Source: Clostridium sp. (GTDB taxonomy: Bacteria > Bacillota > Clostridia > Clostridiales > Clostridiaceae). From it: 64,000 nt of DNA. The position numbers and the translations under genes are program-made. Within the stretch, counting starts at the first letter, position 1. Each line of letters starts with the position of its first letter. Location: contig JARKVD010000011.1 of the NCBI GenBank assembly GCA_029851835.1, positions 1 to 64,000 on the forward strand, in the 5' to 3' direction. The notes beneath the pieces are model-generated. The model saw nothing but the letters and a program-made list of their open reading frames with translations, had not been told where the DNA came from and did not search any database. This document shows, piece after piece, positions 1,795-61,713 of this stretch.

Positions 1795-4281
1795 TCATTC
1801 AACACTTCTAATAGAATCCACTATGGTTGATCTAAATAATTGTCTACCCGAAATCACAGATGATATAGTTGTAACTATAATAGTTATCGTACTTATAATT
1901 AATATCATTATACTAGGAAAAGTCCATGTTGAATTTTTTGATATTAAATCTATAAAGTAAGTTACTAAGGTTCCCAATGAACATCCTAAAATACTTGCTA
2001 GAACACCATATAAAATACCTTCAACTATAAGCATTTGTTTTACTTCATCATGACCAAAACCTATAGCTCTTAAAACTCCTATCTCTCTACTCCTCATTAT
2101 AACGTTCATCTTCATAATATTTATTAAATTAATCATACTTACAGTAGCTACTATAAATATGAAGCTATACAATATAAAACTTAGCTGAGTATTTTGACTT
2201 TTAATTTCTTTATACTCTTCATTAAAAGATTTTATATTGGCTTCTCTTATTTTTTTCAAATCTACTTTTAAGTTGCTATATGCTTCCTCATACTTCACAC
2301 CATCATCGATTGACATATCAATTAAGTTATATCCATTCATATCTAAATATTTAGTTGCTATCTCATCACTAATAATAACCGAAATGCTAATACGTCCATC
2401 TGGAATTTGAAATCTTGTATCATCAATCAATGCCCCTACCTTAAATTCTTGACTACTAGCACCTATTTTTTCACCATTCTCATCATATTTCTCAAAATAT
2501 ATCTCTATCTTATCACCTACTTTTACATTGGTATAATTATAGTTGTTTAAATTTTGAGCAATAGCTAATGTAGTTTCATTATTTAAGTTATCTAAACTTC
2601 CTTCAATCACTTTATTCTTAGTATTTTCTAAAGTACTTTTGTCATAGGCATAGAGCATAGTGTCAAAATTATATATTCCTTTTTCAAATTCATCTCTTTT
2701 AGTTTCACTTTCTTTACCTTTTGCCTTTAAATAACTTAAGCCATCTGAAGTTACCATTTCTTTATCTACATATACATTTACTATTTGAGATTTAACTTTT
2801 GAAATAATACTTACTCCCTCTACATCGCTTACTTTATCTATATCCTGTACGCTTAATCCTGCATTATTATTAGATGTAATTTTAAAATCGGCATCTCCAT
2901 AACTATTTTTAAATTTTACAGTTGGGTCTGCTTGTTTTATCAAATAACATGCCGATATAAGTAGCAATATTGTCATACTCAAAGATATTATTGAAGTTAT
3001 AAACTTCTTCTTATTTCTTCTTATATTTGTAACTGCAATTATGTTTGAAAATTTAACCTTTTTACTACCGATTTTAAAATTATCAATTGAAATCTTATCT
3101 TTCTTTAAATTTATATTATCATTTTCATTTATAGCTTCCATTGGAGATACCTTAGCTGCTTTCTTTGATGGAAAATAAGTTCCTATAATAACTGCAAACA
3201 ATCCTATAATAAATGAACCTATAACCCCTACTTTTGGCATAGCTAGCAAACTAGATAATTTCTCATAATTTAGGTATATCATCATTAATTTTATAACTGT
3301 ATTACCAATAATTATTCCTATGGGTATAAAAACCATACCAATAATTATTCCTTCTATCATCACTAAAGCCTTTATTTTGTTTGGTGATGCTCCTAGTGCC
3401 CTCAGAATTCCGAATTGCTTTTTTCTTTCCATCACAGATACTGCAAATATGTTATAAATATTTATACTTACAACCACTCCAAAAATAATAAATAAAATAT
3501 AACATACAAAATTTAGAGTTTTCACTCCTCTCAATAATATTATTTTCTCATTATTAGCTCTGAAGTGAATGTTAGAATATTTACTATTGTTATTTAAAAG
3601 TAAAGTTCCATCATTTATTGAATGCCGAGAGTTTAAATTTATAAATCCATCATATGTTACTTTTTTATTTTCCAATTGCTTCTCAGCAAATTCTCTAGTT
3701 ACCCATCCAATTGCCGATGGACTATTATCTGTTAAAAGTGAATTATATTCAAATATACCAACTAGTGTGAATTCATTCTCTACTTCCTCCGTTTCCTCTT
3801 TTGATATATATTCCAACTTATGTTTAAGCTTAATTTTATCTCCTATGTTATACTCCTTAGGAAGATAATCTAAGATCCATTGTTCTAAAGCTATTTCATT
3901 ATCCAAATTAGGTTTACGCCCTTCTTTAAACTTAACATTCATAAAGTTAGTAATATTATCATCATATCCCTTAATATCAATAGAATACTTTGTATTTTCT
4001 AGCTCCAAACTTCCAAGTGGTAATATTGCCGCCAAGTCACTTACAACTTCATCTTCTTTCAGTTTATCTAAATTTTTATTATCTGATGTATTAATTATGA
4101 TATCATAATATGCACCTAACCAATTCTTTTGATTCTGAATTAAAGCCTTAATAAAAGATTCCTTCATTATAGCTAATGACATAATTAAAGTTATAGACAA
4201 AATTATTCCTACTGCTATAGCCATAACTCTTTTCTTGTTTTTTATAATATACTTTGGTATTATTCCCCAAAAACTCCTCAC
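1795..4281 (-). CDS. ABC transporter permease, FtsX/MacB type, two FtsX domains
   Basis: 828-residue membrane protein. A first TM helix (about residues 19-40) is followed by a large extracytoplasmic domain, then three TM helices with the FtsX signature (FGILRALGASPNKIKALVMIEG). A second TM helix, second extracellular domain and second FtsX core (EIGVLRAIGFGHDEVKQMLIVEG) complete the protein, about 10 TM helices in all. Such permeases drive mechanotransmission or export of peptides, lipids or lipoproteins rather than classical import. The GTG start overlaps the stop of the ATPase gene (TAGTG), so the two are translationally coupled. The substrate is unknown; no adjacent sensor kinase marks it as a BceAB system. 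An AT-rich codon pattern matches its neighbours. Confidence 0.9.
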   Translation of the reverse strand: MRSFWGIIPKYIIKNKKRVMAIAVGIILSITLIMSLAIMKESFIKALIQNQKNWLGAYYDIIINTSDNKNLDKLKEDEVVSDLAAILPLGSLELENTKYSIDIKGYDDNITNFMNVKFKEGRKPNLDNEIALEQWILDYLPKEYNIGDKIKLKHKLEYISKEETEEVENEFTLVGIFEYNSLLTDNSPSAIGWVTREFAEKQLENKKVTYDGFINLNSRHSINDGTLLLNNNSKYSNIHFRANNEKIILLRGVKTLNFVCYILFIIFGVVVSINIYNIFAVSVMERKKQFGILRALGASPNKIKALVMIEGIIIGMVFIPIGIIIGNTVIKLMMIYLNYEKLSSLLAMPKVGVIGSFIIGLFAVIIGTYFPSKKAAKVSPMEAINENDNINLKKDKISIDNFKIGSKKVKFSNIIAVTNIRRNKKKFITSIISLSMTILLLISACYLIKQADPTVKFKNSYGDADFKITSNNNAGLSVQDIDKVSDVEGVSIISKVKSQIVNVYVDKEMVTSDGLSYLKAKGKESETKRDEFEKGIYNFDTMLYAYDKSTLENTKNKVIEGSLDNLNNETTLAIAQNLNNYNYTNVKVGDKIEIYFEKYDENGEKIGASSQEFKVGALIDDTRFQIPDGRISISVIISDEIATKYLDMNGYNLIDMSIDDGVKYEEAYSNLKVDLKKIREANIKSFNEEYKEIKSQNTQLSFILYSFIFIVATVSMINLINIMKMNVIMRSREIGVLRAIGFGHDEVKQMLIVEGILYGVLASILGCSLGTLVTYFIDLISKNSTWTFPSIMILIISTITIIVTTISSVISGRQLFRSTIVDSIRSVE

Positions 4282-6798: not shown

Positions 6799-6824
6799 TT
6801 TTTTATCCCCCTTTTTAATTTTAT

Positions 6825-7027
6825 AAGGAAACTCCTTTTCATATTCATTCAAAGGAGTAAGTTCGCTTTAACCAAATCAAAGATTTGGAATCTTACTTAA
6901 GGAAACTCCTTTTCATATTCATTCAAAGGAGTAAGTTCGCTTTAACCAAATCAAAGATTTGGAATCTCACTTAAGGAAACCCCTTTTCATATTCATTCAA
7001 AGGAGTAAGTTCGCTTTAACCAAATCA
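6825..7027. repeat. 74-bp tandem direct repeat, 2.7 copies
   Basis: Copies start at 6825, 6899 and 6973 (the last truncated after 55 bp) and differ at only a few bases. Each contains an ACTCCTTT ... AAAGGAGT hairpin and the segment AAATCAAAGATTTGGAATC. The same modules appear at 13821-13992, 33971-34140 and 58095-58148, so this is an amplified member of a dispersed family. It lies upstream of the MATE gene. Confidence 0.92.
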
Positions 7028-23827: not shown

Positions 23828-23905
23828 TTTCACTTTCACTTTCACTTTTACTTTCACTTTTACTTTTACTTTTACTTTTACTTTTACTTTTACCTTTACC
23901 TTTAA
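23828..23905. repeat. hexanucleotide microsatellite (TTTTAC/TTTCAC), 13 units
   Basis: Thirteen consecutive 6-bp units, mainly TTTTAC with TTTCAC and CTTTAC variants, between galT and cbiX. It is noncoding and likely prone to slippage. Confidence 0.95.
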
Positions 23906-51303: not shown

Positions 51304-51990
51304 TTAGTTCTCCCTCCATTTATAGCCAGTTCCCCAGACAGTTTCAATATATCTAGGCTTAGAAGGATTTGCTTCTATCTTGCTTCTCATCCTTCTAATA
51401 TTAACATCTATAATCTTATTTTCTCCAATATAATTATATCCCCATACCATATCAAGAAGCTCATCTCTTGTAAATGCCTTGCTTGGATTCTCCATAAACA
51501 GCTTCATTAGTAAATACTCCTTTGGTGTTAGCTCAATCTCATCATCATTTTTATATAAAGTCTTGCTATTCAAATCAAGCTTGAACTCACCAGAAATAAG
51601 CTCTTTACTTCTTATATTATCACCTATGCACATTCTCCTTAAAAGTGATTTTATTATTGCAATGAGCTCTAACGGATTAAATGGCTTTACAATATAATGA
51701 TCTGCACCATTCTCTAACCCTTCAATTTTATCTCTATCCTGTGCTCTAGCTGTAAGCATAACAATTCCCATCTCAGGATAGTTTTTCTTCAGAAATTTAC
51801 ATACTTCATAACCATCAATTCCAGGAAGCATTATATCTAATATAACAATATCAGGACTCTCTTTTCCGGCTTCTTCAATGCCCTTTTCTCCACTATCAGC
51901 TTCAATAACCTGAAAACCCTCTCGTTTTAGACTTATATTTACAAACTTTCTTATATGTGATTCATCCTCAATTAATAATATCTTATACAT
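51304..51990 (-). CDS. OmpR/PhoB-family response regulator
   Basis: 228 residues: receiver domain (about 1-120; ILLIEDESHIRK, phospho-Asp in VILDIMLPGIDGYEV, Lys in HYIVKPFNPLEL) and winged-helix DNA-binding domain (about 135-228; ELTPKEYLLMKLFMENPSKA, RYIETVWGTGYKW). GGGGGAA lies before the ATG at 51990; a longer frame lacks a ribosome site. It is first in the operon with the kinase and lipoprotein. The target is not known; PhoB-class regulators bind 11-bp direct repeats, like those near 59900, but no link is shown. Confidence 0.94.
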   Translation of the reverse strand: MYKILLIEDESHIRKFVNISLKREGFQVIEADSGEKGIEEAGKESPDIVILDIMLPGIDGYEVCKFLKKNYPEMGIVMLTARAQDRDKIEGLENGADHYIVKPFNPLELIAIIKSLLRRMCIGDNIRSKELISGEFKLDLNSKTLYKNDDEIELTPKEYLLMKLFMENPSKAFTRDELLDMVWGYNYIGENKIIDVNIRRMRSKIEANPSKPRYIETVWGTGYKWREN

Positions 51991-52018
51991 GCTATTCCCC
52001 CATTTCTTTTCAAACAAA

Positions 52019-52050
52019 TGCACCTATAATAAAAAATTATTAAAGGTGCA
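52019..52050 (-). terminator. terminator of the small membrane protein gene
   Basis: TGCACCTATAATA / TATTA-AGGTGCA-type stem around A/T loop, followed on the minus strand by TTTGTTTG. Confidence 0.7.
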
Positions 52051-59186: not shown

Positions 59187-59774
59187 TTAATTTCTAGCCT
59201 TTAAAGCTCTCTGAAGCTTTTCAAAGGCTAGATCTTTTCTTTTTATTACCGTATTATAATTGATCTCTCTTTCTCTAGCATATTCCTTAAAACTCCCCTT
59301 TTCATCTATATACACATAATTTATAATATCCTGCAACTTAAAAGGAAGCCCATAAATGGCTTCCCTCAACACTTTAACTAACTCCTCATTAATATAATCT
59401 GCTTCCACATTCACCTTCTCATCCTTCAAAATATCACTCAAACTAAACCCTTCTCCTAAATCAGCATCAATACTTCCCACAGCATTTTCCTTAGCCTTAT
59501 TTCTTATTAAACATCTAAAATTATTTGTAATTGCTAAGGTAACATAACTCACGAAATTACTTCTGCTCACATGGTATTTTTCAACTGCATTCATCACTGT
59601 CATAAATCCAATCTGCATCAAATCCTCATGGTCATAGCCTGAAATATAAACATTCATGGCGCTTTTATAGATATAATTTTCAAAGGCCTTCATAAGTTCT
59701 TCCATGGACTGTTTGTCCCCTAATTGTGCCTTTCTAACTAACTGTTCAACCTTCTCCCAAGAATTCTTTTTCAT
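59187..59774 (-). CDS. sigma-70 family RNA polymerase sigma factor
   Basis: 195 residues with region 2 (MEELMKAFENYIYKSAMN, DHEDLMQIGFMTVMNAVEKY) and region 4 (YGLPFKLQDIINYVYIDEKG, INYNTVIKRKDLAFEKLQRAL). No region 3 is present. Length and layout are like group IV/V clostridial factors (BotR/TcdR/UviA-like), but no toxin gene lies close. GGGGGTA lies before the ATG. Upstream lies an 11-bp-phased repeat array. A stem at 59195-59232 (CTAGCCTTT/AAAGGCTAG) overlaps the last codons and may end transcription. Confidence 0.85.
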   Translation of the reverse strand: MKKNSWEKVEQLVRKAQLGDKQSMEELMKAFENYIYKSAMNVYISGYDHEDLMQIGFMTVMNAVEKYHVSRSNFVSYVTLAITNNFRCLIRNKAKENAVGSIDADLGEGFSLSDILKDEKVNVEADYINEELVKVLREAIYGLPFKLQDIINYVYIDEKGSFKEYAREREINYNTVIKRKDLAFEKLQRALKARN

Positions 59775-59871
59775 GATTATACCCCCTATAAAATTAAATG
59801 CCCTAAGGATTCTTTTCCCTAGAGCATTCTTATTTTTATCTTTTTTTACTCTTCAAGTATAACAGAAAAAT

Positions 59872-59944
59872 ACTATCATAAAACTATCAACTTACTATCA
59901 CAAAACTATCATCAAACTATCATGTCAAGTTCAACTTACTATCA
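59872..59944. promoter_or_regulatory. 11-bp-phased array of ACTATCA (TGATAGT) sites
   Basis: ACTATCA occurs at 59872, 59883, 59894, 59905, 59916 and 59938: exact 11-bp steps with one slot (59927) degenerate. It lies about 98-170 bp upstream of the sigma-factor start, ending near a TTATACT -10-like element on the minus strand. Seven conserved bases plus four A/T-rich ones per 11 bp is the geometry of PhoB/OmpR-type binding sites. Confidence 0.85.
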
Positions 59945-59971: not shown

Positions 59972-61564
59972 TCAATTAACCTTCACTATTTTATCTTTAA
60001 GTTTTTGCGGCATAAGTTCATATATCTTAGGTGAAACTGTATCTAATTCATATTTAGTAATTCCCCCGATTAGAAGTAATACTGCAAAATATACTGCTGC
60101 ACCTACAATTATTAGAATAAATATCACTATTCCTGCGCTCATTCTTGTGTAATTCTCCATAAAGAAACTATTCACTATAATATACTTTAAACCTAATAAA
60201 ACAACACTCATAATCACCCCTGAAATTATTGAAGTTTTGCTTTGTTTTACTATTGGAATTTTAACATCAAAGGCCTTTTGCAATTTCCTATGATTAACCA
60301 CTGTAGCTATCATAAGCGATACTATAGTGCCAATAACCGCCCCCATAATATTTATGCTGTCTATTCTTATAAGAATAACGTTTATCAGAGTTTTTAGCAT
60401 TATTGTAATTATACCTAAATTTATAATGAATTTAAATTTATTCATTCCTTGAAGAACTATATTTTGAATTGATGTAAGTGCCATAAATAATAACGCCACA
60501 GCTCCCATTAACAGCACCTCATATCCAAAGGCTCTCCCAAATACAAAGTGGAAAATTTCTTTACTTAAAATCATAAGTCCACACACTGCTGGTATAGTAA
60601 TGATATAAATTAATTTATAAAAGTATGACGTTTGAATCATTAGTTCCCTTTTATTTTTTTCTATATACCCTTTAATTATCTTTGGAAAAATTCCAACTCC
60701 TAAAGAGGTTACAATAACAAGAGGTACATTTATTATGGTTGTATAGTATTTTAATGTGGCTGTTTTTATATTAACCTCATTTTCAATTAAATTTCTTATG
60801 GTTATTCCATCTATTACATTTGAAACATTTTGTATTGCAGCTATTAATATAAATGGTACCGCATATGTAAATAAAGTTTTTAATATCTCATTTTTCTTTG
60901 CTTTAGTCAGGGCTTGCTTACTTAGATCAGCTTTATTTATGTATTTTTTATTCATTATATACTTTATATATATAATTGCTCCAACAGCTCCTAAAGTTGT
61001 TCCAACAGTTCCTCCTGTACTTCCCCACCTTACAGAAAACTGCATCAGCTGAACCGCAAAAATCAAGCTGAATACTACATTCAACACCTGCTCAATGATA
61101 TTTGAAACACTAAGAGATATCATATCATTACACCCTTGGAAATACCCCCTGTAGGCAGTTAAAATTGATGCAATTAAAACTGCTGGTGATAAAAACACAA
61201 ACACCCACACAGACTGCTCACTATTAAGAAGAATAGACAGGGGCTTTGCCATCACAGCAAATAATAAACTGACTCCCCCACCGTATATACATAAAATATT
61301 TCTTGATACCTTCAGCGCATGGAGATCACTTTTATCTGATGCTTCCCGATATTCTGCTACTACCTTTGTTATGGCAGGCTGAAATCCTAGACTTGTTAGT
61401 GCAAACAAGAACACAAACACATCATATCCTACAGTATATATAGCAACACCTTCGTCTGTTAATATATGTGATAAAATCGGCATATATAAGGCAGATAACA
61501 ACTTTAATATAATGCTTGATATAGATAAAATTATAACTCCACGTCCAATTGATTTTTCTTCCAT
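59972..61564 (-). CDS. MOP-superfamily flippase, SpoVB-like
   Basis: 530-residue integral membrane protein with about 14 TM helices, matching the polysaccharide biosynthesis/SpoVB/MurJ group that flips lipid-linked glycans. Family segments are GRGVIILSISSIILKLLSAL, YRGYFQGCNDMISLSVSNI and IVNVPLVIVTSLGVGIFPK. SpoVB acts in spore cortex synthesis. ATG at 61564 has AGGTGA 7 nt upstream; a longer frame adds ten codons without one. Downstream is the 11-bp repeat region. Confidence 0.87.
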   Translation of the reverse strand: MEEKSIGRGVIILSISSIILKLLSALYMPILSHILTDEGVAIYTVGYDVFVFLFALTSLGFQPAITKVVAEYREASDKSDLHALKVSRNILCIYGGGVSLLFAVMAKPLSILLNSEQSVWVFVFLSPAVLIASILTAYRGYFQGCNDMISLSVSNIIEQVLNVVFSLIFAVQLMQFSVRWGSTGGTVGTTLGAVGAIIYIKYIMNKKYINKADLSKQALTKAKKNEILKTLFTYAVPFILIAAIQNVSNVIDGITIRNLIENEVNIKTATLKYYTTIINVPLVIVTSLGVGIFPKIIKGYIEKNKRELMIQTSYFYKLIYIITIPAVCGLMILSKEIFHFVFGRAFGYEVLLMGAVALLFMALTSIQNIVLQGMNKFKFIINLGIITIMLKTLINVILIRIDSINIMGAVIGTIVSLMIATVVNHRKLQKAFDVKIPIVKQSKTSIISGVIMSVVLLGLKYIIVNSFFMENYTRMSAGIVIFILIIVGAAVYFAVLLLIGGITKYELDTVSPKIYELMPQKLKDKIVKVN

Positions 61565-61713
61565 ATGATAATCACCTAAATTCTTTTCTTTCATAGGCTT
61601 AATGTGGCCTACCTTCAGTAATAACTATTATATAATTAATTTTTACCATTACATTAATTATACACAAAGGCTGTGGATTATTAAATAAAATTACAATATA
61701 TACTAATAAACAT

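Follow-up and report, generated by a model that had tools for sequence, protein, structure and literature searches.

A phased TGATAGT array upstream of a clostridial sigma-factor gene resembles phage late promoters

The window, the whole 64,000-nucleotide stretch of Clostridium sp. DNA that was analysed, contains seven heptamer slots in strict 11-bp phase upstream of the gene for a small sigma-70 family factor. Judged from sequence comparison, it is probable (about 0.58) that this array serves as an activator-dependent operator-promoter like those of late genes in Firmicutes phages, here driving the sigma gene with its activator supplied in trans. The array stands in register with a −10 and is followed by a leader hairpin, and the same architecture is found beside phage activator genes elsewhere. 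We infer a binder of the RinA/ArpU/Alt class that acts in trans, with the sigma gene as its target.

Phage late operator-promoters of this kind combine several 11-bp direct repeats separated by variable spacers, a −10 in fixed helical phase without a −35, an activator gene directly upstream, and terS, packaging or other late phage genes under their control. The window has the repeats and the phased −10 (identified by eye), but a flippase gene lies upstream and a host-like sigma factor downstream. The array would work like one of these operator-promoters, but because it lacks two defining features, the adjacent activator and the late phage genes, it is a variant and not a member of the phage late class.

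Array sequence and position

The array occupies positions 59872 to 59944. The sigma gene is encoded on the minus strand, and in that reading direction the motif is TGATAGT. On the forward strand, ACTATCA occurs exactly at 59872, 59883, 59894, 59905, 59916 and 59938, while the slot at 59927-59933 is AAGTTCA (TGAACTT on the minus strand), with three mismatches. Along the minus strand the order is TGATAGT, TGAACTT and five more copies of TGATAGT, separated in turn by aagt, gaca, ttga, tttg, aagt and ttta, with a period of exactly 11 bp in all seven slots. The array is real and far beyond chance. One 7-mer fills six of the seven slots; when the entire window was re-drawn 30 times from a first-order Markov model and all periods of 8-30 were considered, no 7-mer filled more than three. 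The strictly phased six exact copies and one degenerate slot described in the earlier note were confirmed by reading and by re-drawing. Constant heptamers set among differing spacers have the look of repeated, putative protein sites.

A genome search for TGATAGT at 11-bp multiples, as had been proposed, returned the array as the only exact two-unit site (2.19 Mb, 83% complete; pattern search). Many of the two-unit matches with mismatches are chance, and the “control” counts of TGATAGT pattern searches are uninformative because this heptamer is identical when read backwards.

The array lies 27 bp beyond the stop of a SpoVB/MurJ-like flippase gene (59972-61594, minus strand), which is not a phage activator, and 98-170 bp upstream of the sigma gene ATG (59774, minus strand). 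This supports the earlier view of a phased multi-site operator in the sole intergenic region upstream of the small sigma-factor gene.

Promoter, leader and sigma-factor gene

Ten bp past the last array unit, a candidate −10 can be read from the sequence (TATACT, 59856-59861, minus strand; TATACTT when extended), and no −35 is recognisable at canonical spacing, where GTTTTA is found. Next comes the leader stretch AAAAAAGATAAAAAT (59832-59846, minus strand; coordinates read by eye and accurate to within a few bases), which the late promoter of Streptococcus phage Javan55 shares exactly. Folding then places a 14-bp hairpin with a weak U-rich tract behind it at 59796-59829 on the minus strand (−20.2 kcal/mol, z −4.7 against shuffles). 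It is terminator-like, and such an element after a late promoter may hint at antitermination or attenuation. No Rfam family matched the region.

The likely target gene (59187-59774, minus strand; RBS AGGGGGT) encodes a sigma-70 family factor of 195 aa, a member of a solitary, mostly chromosomal factor family. Its region 4 aligns with phage activators and matches phrog_36 weakly (E 1e-4). No phage genes adjoin the sigma gene, and searches with the protein in phages, plasmids and viral contigs gave distant matches or none. None of the sigma homologues, the nearest found being 47% identical, has an array upstream, and synteny with the flippase is absent among these homologues at ≤47% identity.

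LexA-type boxes lie upstream of 5 of 30 sigma homologues (shuffled mean 0.4, maximum 2), namely L017, with an exact CGAACATATGTTCG, L004, L005, L013 and L016. From these boxes, the sigma family seems to be linked to DNA damage in relatives by another route.

Related arrays in prophages and viral contigs

Arrays of TGA(C/T)A(G/C)T in 11-bp phase with varied spacers were found at the 3' end of RinA/ArpU/Alt-type activator genes, both in prophages of the bacterial family and in viral contigs. Among the TGATAGT arrays of 207 genomes of the family, those that clearly had variable spacers were in prophages, which have the heptamer itself in common with the window. The array overlaps the 3' end of a RinA/ArpU-type regulator gene or directly follows it in G208, in G229 and at two sites in G210, where the prophage activator is encoded at L139:3906-4442; in G074 (L144) the regulator gene is about one gene away on the upstream side. 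Viral contigs with the array behind an activator gene comprise L156/157, L159, L166, L180, L185, L194 and L197; L166, with eight units in which TGATAGT and TGACAGT are mixed, is closest to the window array. The remaining viral TGATAGT arrays are minisatellite-like or lack a RinA/ArpU-type gene beside them. Exact TGATAGT arrays are rare in the class, which speaks against the phage-type reading. A blastn search of the array against phages gave weak matches only (E 1 or above). Among the array-adjoining regulators, 10 of 12 matched phrog_248 and 10 of 12 matched phrog_36, and RinA, ArpU and Alt-like models match them as well.

The phage-type arrays span 3 to 10 units, a range that includes the seven slots of the window, which had earlier been taken as unusually many. 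They too have a −10 without a −35 in helical phase, often with a leader hairpin; roughly nine of the 16 other promoters carry one clearly stronger than shuffles. In the 16 promoters compared, with −10 boxes picked by eye, the distance between the final unit and the −10 was 8-12 modulo 11; in the window it is 10, as in G229. When phrog_248-type genes were taken family-wide regardless of motif, a strong 11-bp repeat was present in the 200 bases downstream of 8 of 29, as against 0 of 87 upstream control stretches.

Late promoters of TP901-1 (Alt), phi13 (Ltr), phi11 (RinA) and Javan-type Streptococcus phages have a −10 without a −35, with phase and orientation as in the window. The TP901-1 operator on which Alt acts is known experimentally and consists of four imperfect direct repeats located at −76 to −32, and for phi13 Ltr the repeats upstream of the TATA box are required (PMC13123087). 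Direct repeats recur every 11 bp in TP901-1, whose record has this period after alt, and in Javan55, as in the window, whereas those of phi13 Ltr are 18 bp.

In Streptococcus phage Javan55, five units (TTCGAAC, one degenerate) stand behind an ArpU-like gene and are followed by TATACTTAAGATGTCAAAAAAGATAAAAAT, the window counterpart of which is TATACTTGAAGAGTAAAAAAAGATAAAAAT. A −10/leader pattern taken from the window and Javan55 was found in 16 viral contigs, every one of which combines this promoter with an 11-bp array and an ArpU-like gene. Their arrays use one of two other heptamers, and heptamers therefore vary while the −10 and leader stay. As the pattern was derived from the window-Javan55 alignment and is A-rich, its matches are supporting and not independent, and some of the identity between the two leaders could be due to chance.

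One prophage locus (L141:3321-3440 and 3684-4229) parallels the window, in that a ten-unit array drives a gene with a sigma-region-4-like end.

Candidate activators in the genome

The genome, at 83% completeness, contains at least three activator-like genes (L148, L149 and L150; candidate activators at C2:35443-35940, C19:18919-19353 and C17:81731-82078), and none of the three has a TGATAGT operator, a point against the phage-type reading. L149 has a AAAGAAAC-type 11-bp repeat, L150 a 10-bp repeat, and L148, with no array nearby, is the most open candidate activator. At this level of completeness, the true partner may be missing from the sequence.

At L149 (G000:C19, L149:1474-1992), a RinA-like gene precedes the AAAGAAAC-type repeat and a −10 of sequence GCTATAATGG; the layout is the same and the heptamer differs. 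A phage-like or satellite-like element (G000:C17:80000-93400; L199, L200) lies 20 kb beyond the array on the same contig. Besides genes for an integrase, a repressor and a DnaB-like helicase, it contains one that is sigma-like and one that is ArpU-like, the latter with a 10-bp TTTAACTTAA repeat behind it; apart from those of the two regulators, the names were assigned by eye.

Proposed mechanism and implications

According to the preferred reading, small, sigma-region-4-like DNA-binding activators of the RinA/ArpU/Alt type would bind next to one another along a single face of the DNA, with each TGATAGT taking one molecule, and would recruit RNA polymerase to the −10 (TATACTT) without a −35. 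Transcription would then pass through the leader hairpin and into the sigma gene. Since many sites need filling, a switch-like response is expected. It is possible, and proposed here tentatively, that a solitary host sigma gene has come under a phage-late-type promoter and that its regulon is switched on, once phage induction is at its late stage, by the late activator of a prophage or by a domesticated one.

If so, a phage late-gene switch has been reused for a bacterial sigma factor, and a host regulon is tied to prophage induction. The 11-bp arrays behind RinA/ArpU-type genes would also constitute an operator class that is widespread, recognisable and open to exchange of its heptamers, so that targets of these poorly characterised activators could be predicted from sequence.

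Alternative explanations

The array might instead be bound by an OmpR/PhoB-family response regulator that recognises 11-bp head-to-tail repeats and activates the sigma gene, for example the one encoded 8 kb away at 51304-52023 on the minus strand (earlier given as 51304-51990). PhoB boxes follow one another head to tail every 11 bp, have A/T-rich spacers and lie about 10 bp before a −10. Like the window array, PhoB/OmpR boxes are direct repeats of 7+4 bp in 11-bp phase just upstream of the −10, and ACTATCA is similar to their consensus, CTGTCAT. To this extent the PhoB/OmpR likeness drawn in the earlier note holds; it fails as the nearest likeness, since phage late promoters are the nearest in sequence and CTGTCA/CTATCA repeats are missing from the genome's own pstS promoter. 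Such boxes usually number two to four and have several targets per genome, whereas the array is without a second target, which is unusual for a two-component regulator. No motif common to regulon targets (pst, the regulator's own operon) was found, nor a second array near the response-regulator operon in the window. The PhoB/OmpR label is thus possible, yet we regard control by such a regulator as rather unlikely. Sites of Streptomyces SARP activators are likewise heptameric direct repeats every 11 bp near the −10, but their motif is GC-rich and the proteins are actinobacterial.

Autoregulation, in which the sigma factor binds its own array through region 4, could draw on the resemblance of that region to phage activators and phrog_36, but the distance from repeat hexamer to −10 is 12 or 23 bp and not 17, a holoenzyme requires one −35 and not seven, and the homologues are without the array. 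We therefore give this explanation little credence. It is similarly improbable that the array is a relic late promoter from a lost prophage, now unused. The lack of an activator gene beside it and the phage-like remnants at 80-93 kb on the contig would suit a relic, but six heptamers have been kept exact despite differing spacers, and the −10, hairpin and RBS are intact before an intact sigma gene.

A functionless tandem-repeat accident is very improbable: of the 49 stretches with three exact TGATAGT units in a scan of one genome per species, most are minisatellites with identical spacers, but the window array has varying spacers and a set position and phase relative to the −10, and an ordinary minisatellite was rejected as the entire 11-bp unit is not repeated.

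Other repeats

In an element at the Parabacteroides loci L064, L067, L092 and L106, present in several copies per genome, three TGATAGT spaced at 11 bp precede an inverted ACTATCAT; this layout differs from that of the window in having motif copies in inverted orientation, and the arrays have no phage activator next to them. Elsewhere in the window, a 74-bp tandem repeat (6824-7027) is present in 2.8 copies at 98% identity, and a TTTTAC hexamer is repeated 12.8 times at 23828-23904.
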